The notes below the pieces were generated by a model. It saw only the letters and a program-made list of their open reading frames with translations. It had not been told where the DNA came from and did no database searches. A program made the position numbers and the translations under genes. Of a stretch of 64,000 nt of DNA, positions 1,480 to 60,871 are shown piece after piece; position 1 is the first letter of the stretch; every line of letters begins with the position of its first letter. The stretch is from Sinohyriopsis cumingii (Eukaryota > Mollusca > Bivalvia > Unionida > Unionidae), in assembly GCA_028554795.2 (NCBI GenBank), contig CM068842.1, positions 29,279,077 to 29,343,076 of the forward strand, given 5' to 3'.

Positions 1480-2930
1480 GGATTTTGATCATACTCACGA
1501 CAGGTTTGTGTCCTCTCGTGAGATGCGTATTCTTATTGTTTTCTGGATGCGAAAAGTGACATATCTTGTGACAAAAGTGACAATGTACATTTCTTGCGCG
1601 GCAGACTGAACGTAACCTACATTGTCCGCCACACCCAAAACAAGGAGTGGAGGGACGACTTTGTGGTTTTGGCTAGTAACACATACCACGAGGTATATGA
1701 TATGAGTAATTATTACCAGAATAATGTTTTGGAAATGCTGTTGGCTGTGCTTGAAAATTTGCATTGTCTCTGTAACACATACCGCGGTGTTGGTAATTTG
1801 AATTTTGAGTGCGAAATTGCTGTTTTATGGCATTAATATGTGCTTGTGTTTGAGAGCACGAATTGTTGTCTTGGTTTTGTTTTTAATCTGCAACCTTAAT
1901 TTCACGTTTGACTATGTTTATTTCATCTAAAATTATGTTAATTGCAGATAGGTCAGTGTTATCAGTAGTCACAATGGAGTTTTCTGCTAAAACTGATGCG
2001 TGGCGTAAATCTGCCATGTTTGTTGGATTTTTTCTTCAGTACGATCCTTTTTACAGAAGGTTTCAATCCATTCAATGCCACTGCTAATAAAACTTGATCT
2101 GGGATAGTTTTGTCCGTTGCGATTTGCAAAAGGCGACTTAGATAGTCCATAACTATCCCTTGCTGAGTTTGCAATATTGATAGATCTAAAATGACATCGT
2201 TATTATGAAATCTAGATTTAAAGGCTTTAACTAGAATGTGCCAATTTTTTGTAACAGTATCTGGTAAAATATCTTACTAGATTTTAGCATGCTCCTCAAG
2301 ATGTAAAGGAAAAGCATTCAAAACTTTAGCTTCTGATAATTCATACATTTTAGCCCATTGTACAAAATTATCTAACTATTTAACATGATTCTGAAACTGA
2401 TCACCATTAAAAACGTCTAATTTGATAGCAGAAGACATACCTGTTTGCGAGAATCGGTCGTTTCCAGAAATATTTGCACTCCTAGAAAAAATGTTCTGGC
2501 GGAGATAAAGTTTCATGCACTGAACAAGACGGCTTAACTCTGAATGTTCTAGTTTCTGACACAGCAGGAATAGTTTGTGTCATGTTCAGTGGGTTTGCAG
2601 TGAAAAGAGTACTTTTTGGAGTCACAAGCACTGGCGAAATTGGCCCAGGCGGTGGCTGTAGCTGGCTGAAACTTTCGAACGTTGGTGTGTTCAAATCAAT
2701 TGGGCGCTGGGTAACTGGTGCTAGACTGGGTGTTAGTTGGGTTAGGTCCGTTGGACTTTGGTCAAATGGAGGATAACTCACTGGTGCTGAAATGGGTGTG
2801 GACAAAGTACCTGTTGAACTTGTTGAAATCGTCGGCAAGGTTGTCAGTGGTGGGTAGATTGTCACTGGGGATGGCTGTGGTCTAAGGTTAACATTGCCCG
2901 GGGTGGGAGTGGGAGACAAGCGCCCCAATC
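1480..2930 (-). mobile_element. Ty3/gypsy-like gag fossil (broken)
   Basis: Minus-strand remnant of an LTR-retrotransposon gag gene. In order on the minus strand it shows a Pro/Thr/Ser-rich N-terminal part (about 2930-2480), a retrotransposon-gag-type helical region (about 2450-1970, with stretches such as WAKMYELSEAKVLNAFPLHL), and a Cys/His-rich zinc-knuckle region (about 1700-1500). It is broken, with several breaks. No pol and no LTRs are visible on either side, so it is an old isolated piece. The family call rests on the gag-like stretch followed by knuckles and is moderately sure. Confidence 0.65.
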
Positions 2931-24496: not shown

Positions 24497-24828
24497 CCGC
24501 TCCGGTGGCCTAGTGGTTAGAGCGTCCGCCTCGGATGTGGGAGGTCGTGGGTTTGATCCCCAGCCGAGTCATACCAAAGACTTACAAAAATGGTACTAAC
24601 AGCTGCCTCGCTTGGCGCTCAGCAATAAGAGGTTAGTGTTAGGACTGGTCGGCCTGGTGTCAGGATAATGTGACTGGGTGGGACATCATGCTACATGTCT
24701 GCGGCATGATGCCCCAGTGCTAGGCATCACTATAAGCTGTCACACTGCTGATATCGTAGCGATATGACTGAAACATTGTTAAAGCTACGTTAAAAATTCA
24801 TATCACACACACACACACACACACACAC
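24497..24828 (+). mobile_element. tRNA-derived SINE (family 1), full length
   Basis: Best copy of the family. The tRNA-like head CTCCGGTGGCCTAGTGG carries an RNA polymerase III A-box; a B-box near GTGGGTTTGATCCC follows. The body contains CCTCGCTTGGCGCTCAGC and the tail is (CA)n. It is flanked by ACTAGATTTGA (24486-24496) and ACTAGATTGA (24829-24838), a target duplication. A real tRNA gene is excluded by the poor cloverleaf and the long body. Confidence 0.92.
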
Positions 24829-48884: not shown

Positions 48885-49201
48885 GAGTGTGTGATTAGGA
48901 TTTTTAAAGTAGCTTTTAACAATTTTTCAGTCACATCGCTACGATGTCTGCAGTGTGGCAGTTTATAGTGATGTCTAGCACTGGGGCATCATGCCGCAGA
49001 CACGTAGTTGGATGTTCCACCCAATCACATTATCCTGACACCAGGCCGACCAGTCCTGACACTAACCTCTTAACGCTGATCGCCAAGCGAGGTAGCTGTT
49101 AGTACCACTTTTGTAAGTCTTTGGTATGACTCGGCCGGGGTTGGAACCCACGACCTCCCGCTTCCGAGGCGGACGCCCTAACCACTAGGCCACCGGAGCG
49201 G
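48885..49201 (-). mobile_element. tRNA-derived SINE (family 1), full length
   Basis: Well-preserved copy: head at 49130-49201 with TGGCCTAGTGGTTAGGGC on the minus strand and an intact B-box region (GGGTTCCAACCCC). The CA tail is short. Target duplication: TAATGATCTGTAGA (48871-48884) and TAATAATCTGTAGA (49202-49215). Confidence 0.9.
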
Positions 49202-51769: not shown

Positions 51770-52225
51770 GAAAAAAACAGAACACTAGGCTGGAAAAAGA
51801 CATATATAACACAACAAAACCCTAAACAAGGGAAGTCACTACAACAACAACTAGGACGGAAAAAGGGACAATCCAAAGAAAATCCAAAGACAATAAAAAT
51901 ACAAGAACAGCAAGCAACAGTAAAACTGCAAAATTGTCAATTTCCAAATCAACAATGTCAATAGTACCAGCAACAACGACAATAAGAAACTCCACAAACT
52001 AAATCATCAACAGTTATCGCAGAGCAAATACAACCTGCACGAGAAAATCAGATACCCAACTCCCCAAACTCAAAGCCAATTACAGGAACCCTAGAGCAAA
52101 GAAGAGAAAGTGACAGAATTAGAAGGAAGGAAAAAAGAAGGCAGAAGGAGGAAGAAGAACGAAGGATGGCAGAAGAAGCAGAAGAAGCCTTTTTAGCGAT
52201 GGATGAATATTTAGATTTAAAAAAA
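51770..52225 (+). pseudogene. worn Gln/Lys/Glu-rich coding remnant
   Basis: Purine-rich stretch whose plus-strand reading is strongly helical and charged near its end (RRKEKRRQKEEEERRMAEEA). It is probably an accessory gene remnant of the virus-like element and is broken. No family recognised. Confidence 0.35.
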
Positions 52226-52234
52226 AAAACAATT

Positions 52235-52236
<2 letters not shown>

Positions 52237-52309
<73 letters not shown>
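52237..52309. repeat. (TA)n microsatellite
   Basis: Pure TA run. Confidence 0.95.
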
Positions 52310-52312
<3 letters not shown>

Positions 52313-52578
52313 TAAACAAAAAAATAAATAAAAAAATTACAAACAAAAATCACATATATACAAAAAGTGTACCAAATTGGAAAAATATAAATATAGCAAA
52401 CACTTACAATTAGGGCAGGAGGGCCTCCCTATCTGGTCTGCAAAGATCAAACAGGAGAGAGCACCCTCCAAAAAAATACAACATACAACATACAGATATA
52501 CTCTATCACACAAAAAACTATACAACCGCCCAATAAAATTTTTAGGCAACAAAGTTAATCTATTCGAGGCATATGAGT

Positions 52579-52594
52579 GGCCCTTTAAAGGGTC
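52579..52594 (-). terminator. degenerate histone-type 3' stem-loop
   Basis: On the minus strand it reads ACCAAAGACCCTTTAAAGGG then CCACTCATATG. It aligns with the two better stem-loops at 56755 (-) and 57840 (+), including the AACCAAAG lead-in and the CCACTCAT follow-on, but has a base-pair mismatch and a changed loop. It lies at the end of a worn minus-strand coding stretch. Confidence 0.5.
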
Positions 52595-53030
52595 TTTGGT
52601 TTTCTTCTTCTAATTTCTTATATTCCTCCACCAGTTTCTTATTTTCTCTCGTACACTTTTTGTCTTCTTCTTCTTCATTTTTCCTCCTCCTGTTTTTCCT
52701 TCTCCTCCTCCTCCTCCTCTTTCTTCTCCTCCTCCTCCTCTTTCTTCCTTTCATTTTCTTCTTCCTTTTCTATTTTGTTATTCCACTCTTTCGTCCTCTG
52801 TATGTCCTCTTCATCCTTATTCTCCTCATTTTCTTCTTTAATCATCTATCTCAGTTGCTCCTTAATTTTTTTAAAATTAATTCCATTTTTCAAATGTGTG
52901 GACTATAGGCCCCATTTTCAATTCTTTCTATTAGTATTTCCACCATGTCAATCGTATCCACCACTTCCTGTAGTTTCAACATTTTATTCATGTGGTTGCT
53001 TGAAATCTTCTTCTTTGGTTATTCCGTAGA
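52595..53030 (-). pseudogene. worn coiled-coil gene remnant
   Basis: Minus-strand coding-like stretch. The upstream part reads as an amphipathic helix (NKMLKLQEVVDTIDMVEILI); the downstream part is a long Lys/Arg/Glu run ending in a coiled-coil-like segment (ENKKLVEEYKKLEEEN). The plus-strand Leu/Phe/Ser-rich frames here are its shadow. It is followed by the stem-loop at 52579. Broken, family unknown. Confidence 0.4.
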
Positions 53031-53879
53031 ATGGCGCGAATGATTGATTGATTTCTTAAATTATAGTGGCGTGCGTACAATAGTACATATGTCACTGGTT
53101 TATGTCTGCACGGCGGACTGATAATTGTTCCTGAGGGACGGAATTAGAGCCTCATCCCACAGGCGTTTATGTGCTCAAAGAACACTGTTAATGTAGCCAT
53201 CAGGTCGTGGGACTAAAAATGTCCCTAACGACTTGAATGAAGGGCTTTCATTAGTGGGAAAGGACACAATACACACTCATGTTAAAAAAGATGAATTTCA
53301 GATGTTATTGACTGTTCAAGGTGTCGACCCAAGCAGTATGTGACGCCCGTTGCGATTGGTAGCTACGATGACGTCACATCGGGACACCTGGATTTGACGG
53401 GTGGAAATGATTACACATCACCGTCAAAGGTACAGGAGGTCCGGGAGAGGTAAGTAGGGAAAGGTACCCGGCAGCAGGCGCAAACGCACTGAGCCCTGAA
53501 ACGCCAGCCCGTACTTAACCAAATTTAGTCCAGTTATTCTAATGGACAATTAAACATGCCAATAACATGTAAGCCACCTATGCAATTAGATCAAATCGAA
53601 CAAGTTCTCAAAATTTTCCTACGTACTAACAATCTAATAATTTTAGTACATAGGGTACATTATAAATGCCCTGCAAATTTCTAAACACTAATATGTCTAA
53701 GTGACTTGTAAAAAGTTTGGTCACTGTTAGGTTAAAAAGGTTTGAATTTTGAAGCGGTGGATAAAAGGTTCAAGTTAGAGTACGTATTGGTTTTAGCGAA
53801 TTGGGATACCAAGCCAAAATGGTTCCCTTGATAAGAGGCAATATTGGTAGCGCTTAGAAGGGATTTTTAGGCAAAAGTT
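53031..53879. other. non-coding or unrecognised part of the virus-like block
   Basis: No frame supported. It includes GC-richer sequence at 53320-53520 with a TGACGTCA-type site near 53368-53377. Confidence 0.4.
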
Positions 53880-54830
53880 CCACGTTTTCTTCTGCCCCTT
53901 TGCATTTCTCGGCGGTTCGTTGGTCCTTTCTGGTAGCTGCAGGGAACTGCTAGCTGTGTAACGCAGCTATGTAGCTGGCAACACCCACTAGATGATGGAT
54001 TAGGTATCTCTTATAGGCCTCTCCGTAGAATTGGGTGGGGATTCTGACGCCATAGTGCCACTGAGCCAGTCGGGGTTTGTATGTGTCTAAAGATCGTCAG
54101 GCGAGGTATTTCACTGCATTGATGAAATGTCCCGCCTTTCTAACGTCGTCCATCGCTGGTTCCAGGCCCATTTCCCGGAATTGGTTTGGATATGCGTCAG
54201 AATAAACCACCTCTAATATTTCCAGTTCATCTTCCTCTGCCTCTTTTTCGCTAGAGGAAGAAAAATTCTACCAAATAAATCTGCTGCTAATTTGGGTGCG
54301 TCCACACGGGGAACTTCTTGCCTTAATGCCTCTATGTGACTGACAACAGCTTGAGCTAATTGACTTACGAAAGACTCCTGTTCAGTCGGTTGTTGATGTT
54401 GTATTTCGGGAACGTGGTCCGATTTTGATTGGTCAGCCTGTTCCTTTGTCCTGACCCCTTTAGTTGATTTTGTAGGATAGGTCGGCTACTTGAGTTTGAT
54501 CACTTCGTGGGTCGTAACGCTGGAGTGGCAAGATAACTGGGTTTGCGTAGGCTGCTCCACCTGTTTCTGCTGTCTCCTCATGGGACTCCTGGGCCTTTTC
54601 GTGCTTTCTTGGTTGTTTTCCCAACTTAAGAGCAAGGTTGTACGTTTCGCCTGTCCTCTTAGGCTCCATCAAGAGGTAAATACGAGGCCGAGGCCGTTAA
54701 GTGTTCTCAATGCTGGGACGGGTATGATAACCGTCGCTAGCTCCATTATTGTTGTGTTGCTCGCTGCTTTGTTCGCTGCGGACTATGGCGCGAATGACGG
54801 ACGCTTGACTCAAGCACGGACGTGAAGAAA
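53880..54830 (-). pseudogene. unidentified virus-like protein remnant
   Basis: Minus-strand stretch with protein-like content over nearly 1 kb. Recognisable peptides include PLQRYDPRSDQTQVADLSYK, FVSQLAQAVVSHIEALRQE and RLAQWHYGVRIPTQFYGEAY. It is a structural or accessory gene of the element in an unknown family; broken, with several breaks. Confidence 0.4.
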
Positions 54831-55197
54831 ATCATCCCTTACACTCACTTCACATAATACCTACTATCCAGACTCGGGGAGGAGAATAAAACACAATATC
54901 TACTATCCACACAAACCTCCCTCCTTCTCATGCTCTGCACACGTGAATGCTGCATCCTTACTTCATGCGGACGCCGAGGCTCCCGCTCTTGCCTCTCCAA
55001 TTCTTGGTCCCAGTTCTCTATTTTAGGACACGGGTCTCTGTGCTGGTTGTGACTGTGGTTCTTGTCTCTGTGGAGGTGTCTTCACCATTGGCCTGACTTC
55101 ACAGATCTGTCTTAGCATCACGTGAAGCAGGATAATTTTACTTACAAACAATAACTATAAACACAAATACTTACAGACTATTTTTTGACAACCTACG
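54831..55197. other. unrecognised part of the virus-like block
   Basis: No supported frame. Two CTACTATCCA..CAC motifs lie near 54861 and 54900. Confidence 0.35.
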
Positions 55198-55269
55198 GAA
55201 ACGAAGTGCTTTTAGACACACTTAAAAAATTTTAACGTAAAAAGAAACGAAGTGCTTATAGACACACTT
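55196..55269 (+). repeat. direct repeat of ~26 bp
   Basis: GAAACGAAGTGCTTNTAGAC then ACACTT occurs twice, about 47 bp apart, between genes of the virus-like block. Confidence 0.8.
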
Positions 55270-55368
55270 CTATTTTTTAAACTTACAATTGGCAATCGAA
55301 TTAGTATCTCTTTTCTAGAGTATTGTGGTACACTTGAAAAGTGCTGCTTTTGTGGACGGGGAGTTATG

Positions 55369-55815
55369 TCAATCTATTATCGTCTTAGACTGCGTCCCCG
55401 TCTGGCGACAGGCTTTCCGACAGGATAGGGCCTGCTTCTTCGGAAAGAGAAGGAGAACTCTCTCGTGTCTACACGACAGTCCACAAATCCCCAGTCTGGT
55501 TCCTGTCGTTCTCTCTGTTATCTCTGCTTCTGAAGTATGTACTTCTCCGTCTACTCTTCTAGCCCTTTCTTGATTTCCTCTCTGAAGACCTCTTCTATCA
55601 GGTCTTTGGTCACTTTCAGCATTCTGACATTCTCTATCTAAGCTTAAGGCTTGGGTATCATGCTTTACCTGACACGGCGTAAATTCACGTAACCTTCGTT
55701 CAGCTTGGCTAGTCTTAAGCACATCTTCATAGGAGGATGCGTCGACAATGGATAGCCACACTGGAGACTGCCTCGCTTTATATAGTTCAAGCGCTGACGC
55801 GATAGAAAACATCAC
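55369..55815 (-). CDS. hypothetical protein of the virus-like block, 148 aa
   Basis: An open minus-strand frame. The N-terminal half looks like a real protein (SPVWLSIVDASSYEDVLKTS); the C-terminal half is Arg/Glu-rich and less convincing, so the true end may differ. No family recognised. Confidence 0.35.
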   Translation of the reverse strand: MMFSIASALELYKARQSPVWLSIVDASSYEDVLKTSQAERRLREFTPCQVKHDTQALSLDRECQNAESDQRPDRRGLQRGNQERARRVDGEVHTSEAEITERTTGTRLGICGLSCRHERVLLLFPKKQALSCRKACRQTGTQSKTIID

Positions 55816-56098
55816 TACGATTTTTTTTTGTTGGGTCAGAACACTAGCAATGTTGATTTGAGGGAGAGGGACAATTTTTCAAACAATCAAACATATTAAA
55901 AAAAATTCAAATAACAAACTATTTTTGACAAGGTTGACAACGTTGTGAACTTATGCTAGACTTCCACTGACGGAAGTCATTGGGTCATTGATGTACACTA
56001 CGTGTCCTAGCTAAAGACAAAAGCTAACCATAATGGTCACAATACCATCGATCTACTTTGTCGTCGTTTCTTAGAAGACTGACGATCACAATAAGTCA
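55816..56098. other. spacer
   Basis: No frame or motif recognised. Confidence 0.4.
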
Positions 56099-56440
56099 CT
56101 AAATGTTCTTAAAATATCCAAGAGTGCGTTGATGAAGAAAATACACACAATATTGTCCACACACCATGTAATATGTGACTTGTAATTTCATATTATTGAA
56201 TAGTGTCTTCTGGGCATTTCTTCTCATAGAGTTAATAATGTCGTCTTCCAAAGGTGGCAATCCATACGAATCAAAATACTCCACACAACCATCACGGGGA
56301 AATTAGACGGTTACTCAGTAGGTTCCTGAGAGATGAATGTCGTCCGTGTTGATTACATAAGCTTGATGGATTTGAGGTTTACGATGAGGCACTTTATCTT
56401 TAGTACACATGAGTAGTGAAAGGGACGATCTGGCGACAAT
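56099..56440 (-). pseudogene. adenain-like (C5) maturation protease, partial fossil
   Basis: The minus-strand reading has the typical C-terminal half of the adenovirus/Polinton cysteine protease: a YVINTDD region, EYFDSYGLPP, and a C-terminal YMVCGQYCVYFLHQRTLG block around the nucleophile Cys. In the family this enzyme cleaves capsid and core precursors during virion maturation. The copy is partial and broken. Its far (5') side merges into a tandem repeat. Confidence 0.75.
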
Positions 56441-56683
56441 GGGACTTATCATTAAAAACACCCCTGGGACTGTCTAGCGACTATGTAAATTTAACATTAA
56501 CCACCCTGGGACTGTCTAGCGACTATGTAAATTTAACATGGACGAAAAATCGTGGGACTGTCTAGCGACAAGGGAAATTAACATGGGAAATAGAGTTTGG
56601 GACTGTTGAGCGACAAGGGGAATTGAACATGGGAATAAATCGTGGGACTGTTGAGCGACAATGGGAAATTAACATGGGATTTT
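56418..56683 (-). repeat. ~45-60-bp tandem repeat, five to six units
   Basis: Each unit has a conserved core TGGGACTGTYNAGCGACNA and an ATTAACATGG-like segment. Units get closer to each other in sequence toward 56680. The array overlaps the worn 5' side of the protease remnant. Confidence 0.8.
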
Positions 56684-56754
56684 TTTTTTTAAAAATAAAA
56701 AAATAAAAAAAGGGTAGGCAATTGAAAGTCAATCTCTTTTCGAGACCTATGAGT

Positions 56755-56770
56755 GGCACTGAAAAGGGCC
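56755..56770 (-). terminator. histone-type 3' stem-loop of the minus-strand gene
   Basis: The minus strand reads CCCAAAGGCCCTTTTCAGTG then CCACTCA. Six-base stem, four-base TTTC loop, one mismatched pair; the canonical metazoan form is GGCTCTTTTCAGAGCC. It begins 24 nt after the stop codon of the 56795-57028 gene. About 15 nt further on is GGTCTCGAAAAGAGATTGAC, a purine-rich element like the histone downstream element that pairs with U7 snRNA. Confidence 0.75.
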
Positions 56771-56794
56771 TTTGGGTTTATGTTAATGTATCCA

Positions 56795-57028
56795 TTAACA
56801 TAAAGGGCACCGCATTGGTCTTCTTCTTGTCCTTAGGCTGCGTCTCACTGTAGGACCGTAAATCAGGACTCTTTTGAGGCATCCTTGTCTTTCTACGTAG
56901 ATCCTACGTATCCACAGACTGGTGTCTGTCCTGTGGACAACTGTCCACTTGGATCGGACATACATGGGTATGTCCGTCCGGAACATCATTGAAGACACAA
57001 GCGTAGAAGATTGCACATCGGTCCACAT
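56795..57028 (-). CDS. hypothetical 77-aa basic protein with histone-type 3' end
   Basis: A small open frame on the minus strand with a coherent gene layout: a TATAAATA 43-50 bp upstream of the ATG at 57028 and a histone-type stem-loop 24 nt after the stop. The protein is Arg-rich (RRSLRTRRRPMRCPL at the end) and has no family I recognise. Small size, basic charge and histone-like 3' processing would fit a chromatin- or DNA-binding protein made in S phase; this is inference only. It is divergently paired with the gene at 57248. Confidence 0.6.
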   Translation of the reverse strand: MWTDVQSSTLVSSMMFRTDIPMYVRSKWTVVHRTDTSLWIRRIYVERQGCLKRVLIYGPTVRRSLRTRRRPMRCPLC

Positions 57029-57070
57029 CTTGAGGCACCGAGAACAGGTGAATCAATGCAGTGAACTGCA

Positions 57071-57198
57071 CTTATTTATAGGTAGAGGTAGGATTGAAAC
57101 GGATTGAGTTTGTTGACCATTCCAAACACGCGTTACAAAATTCAGTCAGCCCGCATCCAATCCGAAGACAGCAGTCTGTGACATCACGTGGTCTATAT
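57071..57198. promoter_or_regulatory. divergent promoter with two TATA boxes
   Basis: Minus: TATAAATA at about 57071-57078, serving the 56795-57028 gene. Plus: CTATATAG at 57191-57198, about 50 bp before the ATG at 57248, with a CAGTC initiator-like site near 57221. The whole intergenic distance between the two ATGs is 219 bp. Confidence 0.65.
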
Positions 57199-57247
57199 AG
57201 ATTCGCTAGTGCCTGTGTGCAGTCAATCTATGCGACAGTGATTCAAC

Positions 57248-57814
57248 ATGACGGAAACTCAGAAAACGATCCATTGGGGTGCACCAGCAGTGGAGACTGC
57301 CCAAGGGAACCCGGACTTACTTTCAGAAGAGGTAAATTGGGATTTTGTGGATTTTGTTACCTCGCAAGAGTTTGTTCCGGAACCTTCGTCACCTTCATTA
57401 CCGCAATTGGAGAATTTTAGACAGAGACAGAAAGAAGAATTGGAGAAATTTATACAACGACAAAAGGAAGCGGAACAAGCTTTTCTCCTACAGCAACAGC
57501 AGCAAGAAGAAGAGGTAAGAAACAAACAACAACAAGAAGAAGTAGCAGCAAAGAAACAAGAGGGTGAAAAGCAAACGGTCACGGTACTGTTGGACATTTT
57601 AGCGGAGTTAAGAAGTCTGAAACAAATGTATCAGACTTCTTTATTAAGACCGAAGAGAATACGACCTTCCCGAGCTAAACACGTCAACCCTGTGACTAAG
57701 CCTACCGTACCACCCTTAGTGATTTCAACCAAATCATCATCATCAACAGTACGCAGTCCAGAAGTAGGCCTTGGCCGTGGCAAAGGCTTAAGGCAGTTAA
57801 AGTTGATTGCTTAA
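57248..57814 (+). CDS. 188-aa coiled-coil protein with histone-type 3' end
   Basis: An open frame starting MTETQKTIHWGAPAV. Residues about 60-115 form a long Gln/Glu/Lys coiled coil (FRQRQKEELEKFIQRQKEAE and a Q5 run). This is followed by a hydrophobic helix (VTVLLDILAELRSLKQM) and a basic C-terminal tail with RPKRIRPSRAKH and GLGRGKGLRQ, like a nucleic-acid-binding or nuclear-targeting tail. No family recognised. The TATA box is ~50 bp upstream, and a near-canonical histone stem-loop starts 26 nt after the stop. It is paired divergently with 56795-57028; both ends use the same type of stem-loop, so the two were probably expressed together. Confidence 0.75.
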   Translation: MTETQKTIHWGAPAVETAQGNPDLLSEEVNWDFVDFVTSQEFVPEPSSPSLPQLENFRQRQKEELEKFIQRQKEAEQAFLLQQQQQEEEVRNKQQQEEVAAKKQEGEKQTVTVLLDILAELRSLKQMYQTSLLRPKRIRPSRAKHVNPVTKPTVPPLVISTKSSSSTVRSPEVGLGRGKGLRQLKLIA

Positions 57815-57839
57815 ACTCACCCCTACACCAAAAACCAAA

Positions 57840-57881
57840 GGCCCTTTTCAGGGCCACCCACGTCTCTCGAAAAGAGATCGA
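57840..57881 (+). terminator. histone-type 3' stem-loop and downstream element
   Basis: GGCCCTTTTCAGGGCC (57840-57855) is a perfect six-pair stem with the invariant-type TTTC loop, preceded by ACCAAA and followed by ACCCACG, all as in metazoan replication-dependent histone genes. About 10 nt later TCGAAAAGAGATCGACTTTC (from 57867) is a purine-rich downstream element. The sequence from the stem-loop through AATTGCC is matched, inverted, at 56718-56770. Confidence 0.85.
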
Positions 57882-58098
57882 CTTTCAATTGCCAATAACT
57901 CAAAAATCAACAAAGAACTCCATTTTACCCCTGTAGTACGTGTATATGAGTGCGTGAGTGTAGCTTCTTATTTAAAATCAAAACTCAAAGACACTTACCT
58001 TATATAATTAATGTATTCTTTTATCAATAGTTACAATCCAATTCACAATTCACAACAGAGCACTTTAAAAAGTTCATAGACTTCTTCTGTCTCATTGT

Positions 58099-58566
58099 TT
58101 AGTCTCTTTGTTTTTTAAATTTCTTCACCGTCACAGTCTTTTCCTCCTCTTCCTCTTCACTTTCTTTCCTTCTTCTTTTCTTCTCCTGTTTCTTTTTCTT
58201 CACCTGGCTGCTTTCTTCCTCTGAAGAATCCCTCTCTTCCTCTGAAGAATCCCTCTCTTCTTCTGAAGAATCCCTCTCTTCTTCTGACTCCTCTTGTTTC
58301 TTTTTTGGGCAATCTGGAGACCAATGTCCTTTTACTTGACAATAATAACAGGTATCTTGACTTTTGTCTTTCCTAGCCCCTGTTTTTCTTTTTTGACGGT
58401 CTGGACACTCTGAAGACCAATGCCCTTTCTTTTGACAGATATAGCAAGTATCTTGACTTTTATCTCTAAAGGAAGGAGTGTAGTCCGTCGGCTGGTCTGA
58501 AGAGAATTTTCTAATGACCCCTCGCAAAGCTCTGATGAAACGTTCGATTTGGCTAGTCTCTTCCAT
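58099..58566 (-). CDS. zinc-knuckle (CCHC x2) protein, 155 aa
   Basis: A minus-strand gene. I choose the ATG at 58566 rather than the upstream in-frame one at 58614, because the TATA box (TATAAAA, 58621-58627) would start transcription near 58593. Residues about 39-52 and 70-83 form two CCHC knuckles (CYICQKKGHWSSEC and CYYCQVKGHWSPDC) that bind single-stranded nucleic acid. A threefold DSSEEER repeat and a Lys/Arg- then Glu-rich tail follow. Retroviral-type knuckles occur in host and virus-like proteins alike; here the gene sits divergently beside PolB, inside the Polinton-like block, and is likely its accessory gene. A duplicated module (SQDTCYxCQxKGHWS) shows that the knuckle arose by tandem copying. 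Confidence 0.75.
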   Translation of the reverse strand: MEETSQIERFIRALRGVIRKFSSDQPTDYTPSFRDKSQDTCYICQKKGHWSSECPDRQKRKTGARKDKSQDTCYYCQVKGHWSPDCPKKKQEESEEERDSSEEERDSSEEERDSSEEESSQVKKKKQEKKRRRKESEEEEEEKTVTVKKFKKQRD

Positions 58567-58617
58567 CGTTGTGCTCGGTTTGAGAGTGAAATGAATAGTG
58601 AAAGGACAAAACACACA

Positions 58618-58700: not shown

Positions 58701-60259
58701 ATGAAACGATTCGATTCATTTGAGAAGAAAGAAGAAGAAAGTAAGAGGCAGAAACGTGATCTATCGCCTCGTACCAGGGCTGAAGTCTTGGCACAAATTC
58801 ATGCCAGTGATTTTGAAGACGACATGAGTGAACCAGAATCCAAACCCTCTAAACAAAGTTCGTCACCCTTAGTCAACCCTGAAAAATACTATTCCATTCG
58901 AGAGACGGAAAAGCGCCCCTCTAGAAAATTTAGAACCACGGCTTACAAATACACGGTGAAGTTTAAAGATTTCAAGTCCGAAGTACCGTTAGAGAAAGCA
59001 GAAGGGTTCATCACTGGGGTGTGGGATTCTTTGCTCACCACACTCAAGCGACAATGTCAACCCAAAGAAGACGATCGCTTGAGACTCTCCATACAACACG
59101 ACGGTTTGAAATCCCCAGTTTGGATCGAGTTTAGCACCCCTGCAGAATTGACTGCTTCCAAAGTCATGGACAAGATACAACACGTACAACAATCCAATGA
59201 CAAGTTTGACATCACCGATGGAAAAGCCACACTGGACATGATCCACGTCTCTCCTCCTCAAGGGACCGGACAACGCAATAAGGTGTTACTGGTGAACGAC
59301 CTTCGCAGCACCAAAACGAATCTCGTCCAAATTCACAATTCTCAAGACCAGATGTGTTTAGTCCGAGCCATCGTGGTGGGACGAACCTATGCCAACAAGA
59401 ACGACGCGGTAGAATGGAAAAGAACCTGGAAAACTATTCAACGATCGGACCGAGCCAAACAACGAAACGAAGCAGAACTCCTGTTGCAACAAGCTGACCT
59501 ATCCAAAGACACACCTTGCGGCATTCCTGAAATGCAAAAATTGCAAGATGTCCTAGCTCCACGCTACACCTTGAAAGTGCACCCTCAGGAAGTGCGTGGG
59601 CCTCTGTTGTTTCGAGGCCAAGACTTTAAGGACGGAAAATACATTCATGTCTATTATCACGATGAACATTTCGATACCATTACCAGTATCACTGCATTCC
59701 TGGGATACGGTTATTACTGTGACAAATGTGACCATGGTTATAACAATCGAGAGCAACACAAACTTTGCGGATTGAAATGCTCAGGATGCCCTGTCTGAGC
59801 GAAGGACAAGAAAGAATACATTATCCTGCTTATCTGCGCACGTTTGTCAGCCCTGCCTATTACCAACAACATCTGAAGACGCAAGGTTCACAGCAGAAAT
59901 GTGCTCGTCAACTCCTAAGATTGTGCCCTACCTGTGGACAAGGCCTATGTACCAATACTGTCAAGGCATACGTATGTCGAGGAAAGAAAAAATGTCACAT
60001 TTGTCATCATATCGTGGACTTGGAACACCAGTGCTACGTGCAAAAATACCAATCCCCACCAGAGAAAGAGGATGGTCACAAGAAGAAGAAAGGCAATTTC
60101 ATCTTTTTCGATTTCGAATGCATGCAAGAGACGGGCATTCACATTCCTAATTTCTGCGTGGCTCATCGAGCGTGCGAGAAGTGCATTCAAGAACCTATCT
60201 TGAGTCATTGCTCTCACTGTGAACAAGCGAACAAGATGAATACTTTCAGAGAAACATAA
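58701..60259 (+). pseudogene. Polinton protein-primed DNA polymerase B, N-terminal and exonuclease part (fossil)
   Basis: Matches the front part of Polinton/adintovirus PolB. There is a charged disordered start (to about residue 90), a conserved N-terminal domain with LRLSIQHDGLKSPVWIEF, QMCLVRAIVVGRTYANK and IHVYYHDEHFDTITSITAFL, a Cys/His-rich part (CDKCDHGYNNREQHKLCGLK; further CxxC pairs around 59930-60030), and the start of the 3'-5' exonuclease domain (FIFFDFECMQETG, metal-binding Asp-Glu). In the family this enzyme replicates the element from a protein primer. No polymerase palm region is found downstream; the next genes are unrelated. Fossil, broken, few breaks in the part present. 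Confidence 0.85.
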
Positions 60260-60403
60260 AACAAGTTTAGAAAGGCACAATTCAAGTGTGGGGCTTCTGA
60301 AGTGGAATGCGATTGTGAGCCTTGCGATGGGTACGATGCTGTACGTTGTGACCTTAGCGATGCCGTAAAGCATCATGGGAACTTTGTTCTCACTAACCCT
60401 ATC

Positions 60404-60871
60404 ATGGAAAGTGATGCTGTGCGTGTCAAACCTGAGGGATGCGAAAGCGATGCCGCTCGTCCTCTTGGACATTTTACTGGGTTTCGTTTTAAAGGTGGAT
60501 GTTCATCTTCACGTCTACCCCCTTACGGATGTCATCCAGCCCTGAGCAAACTCCTGTCCATGTCACCCAACCCTCATCGAAACGAACCTGTGAAAGACGA
60601 ATATTCGTTTCCTGTGCGTTTGTCGGAATACTGCGACTTTGAAAATCGTCTTCAATCGTTCAAAGGAAAATGGCCTAAGTATCTGGGAGGCCCGACCCCC
60701 GAAGAATTAGCCAGAGCCAGATTTTTCTACTTGGGCGAAGGAGATAAAGTCAAGTGCTTCAGTTGCGGTGTGTCACTTCACCACTGGGAACCGCAAGATT
60801 CGGCCTACGTAGAACATGCTCGATGGTCACCGAATTGTCATTACTTACCCTTAGTGGGACCGAGACATTAA
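60404..60871 (+). CDS. BIR-domain (inhibitor-of-apoptosis-like) protein
   Basis: The C-terminal ~80 residues are a textbook BIR domain: FENRLQSFKGKWP, then CFSCGVSLHHW, Cys-x2-Cys-x16-His-x6-Cys with correct spacing for zinc, ending SPNCHYL. BIR domains bind caspases or pro-apoptotic peptides. No second BIR and no RING domain is present, so it is a single-BIR, survivin- or viral-IAP-sized protein. The start is uncertain: in-frame ATGs at 60404 and 60560, and the frame is open further upstream. The N-terminal part has a repeated SDAVR-like motif of unknown meaning. It lies 12 nt before the next gene, in a same-strand run that leads to the packaging ATPase. Confidence 0.8.
   Translation: MESDAVRVKPEGCESDAARPLGHFTGFRFKGGCSSSRLPPYGCHPALSKLLSMSPNPHRNEPVKDEYSFPVRLSEYCDFENRLQSFKGKWPKYLGGPTPEELARARFFYLGEGDKVKCFSCGVSLHHWEPQDSAYVEHARWSPNCHYLPLVGPRH

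Follow-up and report, generated by a model that had tools for sequence, protein, structure and literature searches.

The window, the whole 64,000-nucleotide stretch of Sinohyriopsis cumingii DNA that was analysed, contains two short divergent genes, here called A and B, which lie within a very abundant element that can be described as Polinton- or Maverick-like from its gene content, a naming that is partly backed by profile matches (Table 1). The likeness to Polintons/Mavericks and adintoviruses comprises an integrase with a chromodomain together with ATPase-, protease-, capsid- and polymerase-like genes. Among these, a chromodomain was matched in the 10 kb beyond the window (E 5.5e-08), and two further matches stayed below cut-off, Pox_A32 for the ATPase of the window and Peptidase_C5 (E 0.12) in the following 10 kb. 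The integrase core was recognised by eye only, and it, the capsid and the polymerase are presumably what they resemble, an assumption drawn from inspection; profiles gave no match for the polymerase-like part, PolB or capsid. Queries with the ATPase, polymerase and 63390 proteins detected no relatives in a viral contig collection, nor did the ATPase in a genome contig collection, and a PHROGs search with 7 proteins returned nothing of weight. A search for the stem-loop pattern in viral contigs found 2 contigs, phage-like by eye and scoring 21–22 bits, which were taken as chance. The window copy is broken in places, with an in-frame stop in the ATPase and a short polymerase frame, and its sequence was left as it is. 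The element also bears an inhibitor-of-apoptosis (BIR) gene (window 60302–60871, E 2.8e-22).

Table 1. Features of the element and of its 3′ signals in the window.
Feature	Position	Strand	Basis
Decayed copy of stem-loop plus downstream element; sequence ahead of it resembles family F (by eye)	52540..52603	-	repeat/profile match
Decayed second-type 3′ end; upstream frame resembles family E (by eye)	55288..55341	-	nhmmer E 0.019
Gene A downstream element, GAAAAGAGAT core and TTTCAATTGCC block	56717..56741	-	sequence, inverted-repeat and profile comparison
Stem-loop of gene A, C.U mismatch at pair 4-13	56755..56770	-	RF00032 match 56775-56730, 28.3 bits
Gene A, protein of 77 aa; four strands and a basic tail predicted	56795..57028	-	dN/dS 0.127, 22 distinct frames
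Divergent A/B promoter, TATA-like boxes on both strands	57029..57247	.	36 pairs
Gene B, 188-aa coiled-coil-like protein, intact frame	57248..57814	+	17 intact frames in other copies
Histone-type stem-loop of gene B, 6 bp, UUUC loop	57840..57855	+	RF00032 match 57835-57880, 37.2 bits
ACCCA, expected cleavage site after final A (predicted)	57856..57860	+	site as in the available part of PMC6303110
Purine core GAAAAGAGAT of downstream element, 13 nt past stem	57869..57878	+	core and spacing as in host histone genes
Distal conserved block TTTCAATTGCC	57883..57893	+	resembles downstream sequence of host H2B and H2A
Zinc-knuckle (CCHC) gene, no stem-loop behind	58099..58614	-	zinc knuckle E 3.6e-13
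Polymerase-like N-terminal part (presumed), two frames, cut short	58701..60259	+	open frames
Packaging-ATPase-like gene with in-frame stop; AATAAA 23 nt past end, no stem-loop	62598..63354	+	Pox_A32 E 0.027

Metazoan replication-dependent histone mRNAs end in a stem-loop that is bound by SLBP, and are cut under the guidance of the U7 snRNP at a purine-rich element. The preliminary description of this locus had proposed that the genes of the pair borrowed such a 3′ signal, each with a hairpin 24–26 nt past the stop codon and a purine element behind it. Both hairpins are present. That of gene B, GGCCCTTTTCAGGGCC, begins 25 nt past the stop codon, is directly followed by ACCCA, and scores 37.2 bits with the Rfam Histone3 model (cut-off 34, E 3.2e-07), with the purine stretch CGAAAAGAGAT (57868–57878) downstream. 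That of gene A begins 24 nt past its stop codon and carries a single mismatch, C.U, in the stem, as had been claimed. The covariance check bore out the proposal for the gene B end; the gene A end is weaker and at 28.3 bits falls below the cut-off (E 1e-4 in a 10-kb search). The GAAAAGAGAT core is found in both downstream elements.

The two 3′ ends form the arms of a 63-nt inverted repeat that is 87% complementary. A third copy, at 52603–52559 (-), matches both A and B ends (82% and 80% over 45 nt, the latter being complementarity to the + copy) and reaches only 15.2 bits in Rfam (E 3.1). The fourth was found with an nhmmer profile built from the other three window copies and has no Rfam match. 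Of the four copies of the 3′ signal in the window, one is thus intact, one is nearly so and two are decayed. Hairpin matches with at most 3 mismatches numbered 4 in the window, one palindromic site being counted on both strands, against 0.14 expected, and none of 100 shuffles gave 4 or more. No anchors of the downstream element were found in the first 52 kb of the window.

Several other observations concern the surroundings of the pair. The region to its left (52000–56400) contains remnants of element genes recognised by eye, namely family F, family E and a piece of protease (56102–56302, -), as if a second, rearranged copy adjoined the pair on that side. Tandem repeats of about 45 nt occupy 56422–56675, just downstream of the gene A end, and similar translated repeats lie beside the gene A end in other copies. 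A T-box match at 56614–56837 (21.5 bits against a cut-off of 93, E 0.2) was put down to chance. Two tRNA matches, at 24499–24571 (+) and 49127–49199 (-), sit in long inverted dispersed repeats and probably represent host SINEs of tRNA origin.

Other genes of the element bear poly(A) signals, in agreement with the preliminary description, several having a hexamer and lacking the hairpin. Apart from the ATPase with its AATAAA, the protease gene has ATTAAA 66 nt past its stop and no stem-loop, and the ATTAAA of the BIR gene overlaps its own stop. Three genes (g60883, g61297 and g62128) show neither stem-loop nor poly(A) hexamer within 120 nt past the stop; g62128 has AATAAA just inside its end. 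The CCHC gene was found to reach its C-terminus at 42 places, with a stem-loop within 250 nt in 5 (L007, L008, L022, L027 and L043) and none in the other 37, 22 of which have a hexamer. The 5 exceptions all lie outside the 33 sources that showed A, B and CCHC jointly in a search with low-complexity filtering, and so probably reflect matches to the E/K-rich sequence of family C or F. The stem-loop genes, in turn, have short 3′ untranslated regions with the poly(A) signal generally missing ahead of the predicted cleavage site: a hexamer between the stop codon and the end of the downstream element occurs at 4 of 86 ends, all of gene B. In the 240 nt past the downstream element a hexamer is present at 26 of 86 ends, which would make a poly(A) fallback possible.

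A scan of the 2.9-Gb genome gave 589,472 first-look Histone3 candidates, of which 75 were scored. All 75 lie above cut-off (34.5–45.6 bits), are dispersed over many contigs, and show no overlap with the scored histone matches. Sequence was taken for 55 of them, and each of these has a match to one or more of the seven element proteins used as queries (E <= 1e-6), gene A of the window in 37 and gene B in 37; the queries were A and B of the window and five further representatives drawn from the loci themselves. A strict definition of the stem-loop (six Watson-Crick or G.U pairs, a U-N-U-N loop and AC after the stem) yielded 105 in 57 sources, the window end and the following 10 kb included, and 103 of these stand behind one of six gene families by tblastn: A 32, B 29, C 15, E 10, F 9 and D 8. 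The expectation that the stem-loop recurs after related genes is thereby borne out elsewhere in the same genome. Where an open frame of at least 50 codons ends within 150 nt, the stem-loop starts 18–33 nt past the stop in 81 of 100 cases. The products of the stem-loop genes A–F (L004, L006, L007, L033 and the window) are short or coiled-coil-looking, several with basic C-terminal tails, and in one element the family C gene is duplicated in tandem (L058, 7927–8250 and 8721–9044), the translations shown being identical.

Anchoring on the downstream element, a test that is independent of the stem, located 114 places in 55 sources. Six of six stem pairs form in 98 of these, five in 14 and four in 2, compared with 13.5% for six and 42.7% for five in random 45-mers from the same loci. 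Among the 112 places with at least five pairs, 106 stand 15 nt from the anchor, 106 have the loop UUUC and 89 continue with ACCCA; the UNUN loop, A-rich 5′ flank and ACCCA-like 3′ flank expected of RF00032 were all found. Because the copies share descent and were picked by Histone3 score, these counts are not independent and favour good stems. A stronger point than the raw counts is the way in which stem pair 1-16 divides by gene family. Across the 112 anchored places this pair is G-C in 84, A-U in 25 and A.C in 3, and in the strict stem-loops families C and E have A-U without exception (25 of 25), while families A, B, D and F have G-C in 77 of 78 cases and G.U in the other.

The host's own histone genes are repeated in tandem, the unit measuring about 8.28 kb, as seen in the 150 candidates scored out of 662. 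One unit, L065, comprises H3, H4, H2B, H2A and H1, each with a stem-loop of 35.0–39.4 bits, and GAAAAG stands 13 or 14 nt past the stem in all five. In the element the AAAAG core occupies the host place (13 nt to the preceding base) in 96 of 103 cases, shifts to 14 nt in 3 and is absent from 4. Beyond the core, host H2B has TTTCAATTTTG and H2A ATCAATTTTGCC, both close to TTTCAATTGCC of the element. When the downstream 46 nt of the five host genes were aligned with those of one copy from each of the six element families, the mean score was 7.23, against 2.52 (sd 0.42, maximum 3.9) in 500 shuffles. The shared core, the spacing and the downstream alignment together indicate that the element carries the downstream element of the host's own histone genes, and the purine motif that had been called U7-type is thus the same, at the same spacing, as that of the five histone genes. 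In the available part of one study, a palindrome is described on every histone mRNA of a bivalve, with purine-rich elements nearby on four (PMC6210712).

The available part of PMC7026596 gives pairing of an AAAGAG core with CUCUUU of U7 and prints the Drosophila U7. For window copies 1 and 2, pairing of the 5′ arm of this RNA involves the two conserved blocks and is significant against shuffles (p 0.023 and 0.029); for copies 3 and 4 it does not reach significance, and with the mouse arm it does so for none of the four. Among family examples, pairing of the Drosophila arm was significant for A (p 0.024), B (0.002), D (0.008) and F (0.008), and not for C, E or any of the five host histones (H2B, p 0.058).

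U7 snRNA is bound by Lsm10 and Lsm11 and has a AAUUUGUCU-type site. The Rfam model for it matched none of the 65 host candidates scored among 801,960, and none in any control genome either; with so few candidates scored and the model silent in the controls, absence of U7 is not demonstrated by this result. Three U7 patterns gave 7, 192 and 579 matches against 15, 131 and 323 in reversed controls without yielding the host U7, and none of the 6 contexts inspected among the 7 of the first pattern looked U7-like. With the host U7 not found, contact of the distal block with U7 is a guess. TCTTTTCCAAATTTGTCTGG, which has a U7-like Sm-site look, recurs on many contigs among the listed matches of the third pattern; it represents either a dispersed repeat, probably, or U7-derived copies.

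Histone H2A and H2B genes are arranged as divergent pairs, an arrangement with which that of A and B can be compared. The spacing between A and B is 208–222 nt in 36 pairs, the window included, and a TATA-like box faces A in all 36 and B in 32. For gene A, 22 distinct open frames gave a median dS of 0.885 and a median dN/dS of 0.127 (177 pairs with dS > 0.05), and for gene B 17 frames gave a median dN/dS of 0.457 (112 pairs), both samples being of normal-length frames only, which favours constraint. Even so, these rates mark at least gene A as protein-coding and under selection. The fold predicted from its single sequence, at modest confidence (mean pLDDT 70.7), gave no viral structure match at E <= 0.001.

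The explanation that fits these observations best, and that we regard as probable with considerable confidence, is that at least six gene families of the Polinton-like family, A and B in the window, E and F as remnants nearby and C and D elsewhere, end in a histone-type 3′ signal that would be processed by the SLBP and U7 of the host, several of its other genes carrying poly(A) signals. A hairpin with a guide element behind several genes suggests that the histone machinery has been borrowed in place of poly(A) tails. The borrowing put forward in the preliminary description is supported at the level of the signal, by the Histone3 match, the placement behind genes and the host-like purine element, and the processing is what we infer from it. 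Most likely, pre-mRNAs of the stem-loop genes would be bound by host SLBP, the host U7 snRNP would pair with the GAAAAG core and perhaps also with the distal block, and the cut would fall after ACCCA, giving an mRNA without a poly(A) tail. Expression would then track S phase, when a DNA element can replicate; this timing is most likely too, by analogy with what is known of histone mRNA. Against this explanation stand the single intact copy among the four of the window, the failure to find the host U7, the non-significant pairing of Drosophila U7 with C, E and the host histones and of mouse U7 with all four window copies, and the hexamers beyond the downstream element at 26 of 86 ends.

It is improbable that the signal was merely inherited, an ancestor having captured a histone 3′ end that was then copied with the element and never used. 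Such a history would suit a signal that resembles that of the host histone genes, the descent of all copies from few ancestors and the decay of the old copies in the window; the presence of the signal in six different gene families, with a paired G-C/A-U difference between them, speaks against it. In family A, moreover, the stem is fixed while sites 80–130 nt further on drop to a top-base frequency of 0.47 and gene A has a median dS of 0.885, although the filter favours the figure for the stem. A decoy role, in which the many stem-loops of the transcripts would act chiefly by titrating away SLBP or U7, depressing histone production by the host to the benefit of the element, seems highly improbable as the main function and would be compatible with processing by the host. 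The exact signal (CTTTTCAGGGCYACCCA, 6–10 nt, AAAAGARAT) occurs 26,604 times in the genome (13,157 forward and 13,447 reverse, with 0 in the reversed control), against 662 first-look histone candidates (150 scored), an abundance that would serve a decoy; yet the genes ahead of the signals have TATA promoters and, in the case of A, show coding constraint, as in ordinary use. Hardly credible is an element acting at the DNA level, as inverted repeats for recombination, inversion or replication with a secondary likeness to histone ends. In its favour, the A and B ends do form inverted-repeat arms, and in L005, one of 33 sources, the orientation of the pair with respect to the CCHC gene is reversed. 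Against it, each site lies behind a gene and shares its orientation, sites occur singly too (families C–F), and they have ACCCA and the spacing of host histones. In L005 gene A lies at 1569–1799 (-) and gene B at 2019–2504 (+), and the inversion perhaps arose by recombination between the two inverted 3′ ends.

Returning to processing by host SLBP and U7, the abundance of the signal bears on its possible scale. Joining those of the first 100 listed places, all from a single contig, that are less than 20 kb apart leaves 37 clusters. On balance, it is somewhat likely that a regulon based on histone mRNA 3′ processing exists here, in which at least six accessory families in thousands of copies would yield non-polyadenylated, SLBP-bound, S-phase-gated mRNAs through the host U7, and in which element and host would compete and may have co-evolved. 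The suggested competition for the same machinery follows from the 26,604 signals being roughly forty-fold more numerous than the 662 first-look histone candidates.

Compared with the 3′ ends of metazoan histone mRNAs, those of the element agree in stem-loop sequence, loop, ACCCA, purine downstream element and spacing, and the genes share with histone genes their shortness, freedom from introns and TATA boxes; they differ in that the genes concerned are not those of histones but of a mobile element dispersed across the genome, and in that their processing is predicted. Polintons/Mavericks and adintoviruses differ in that, in the open-access text available, no histone-type 3′ ends were found described for them. 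The same text describes no such ends on viral or transposon genes other than sub-threshold coronavirus predictions (PMC7786107); this scope leaves aside subscription papers, and absence from print is not claimed. According to the available part of that report, SARS-CoV-2 holds a Histone3 element, a likeness in that the element is claimed in a virus, but one of 14.7 bits, far under the cut-off of 34, and situated inside a coding region. Adomaviruses are likewise animal DNA viruses that acquired part of the histone system; their histoid genes, however, encode histone-like proteins, whereas here it is the mRNA 3′ end that is found on non-histone genes, and stem-loop, SLBP and polyadenylation are not mentioned in the available part of the source (PMC11071296).

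If the explanation holds, virus-like genes with the host's histone downstream element would constitute a second class, and a mobile element could time its genes to S phase by the 3′ end alone. The mRNAs of the element would be missed by poly(A)-selected RNA-seq. The tens of thousands of natural variants of the signal would offer material for studying the specificity of SLBP and U7, and any competition between such elements and the processing of histone mRNA becomes testable.
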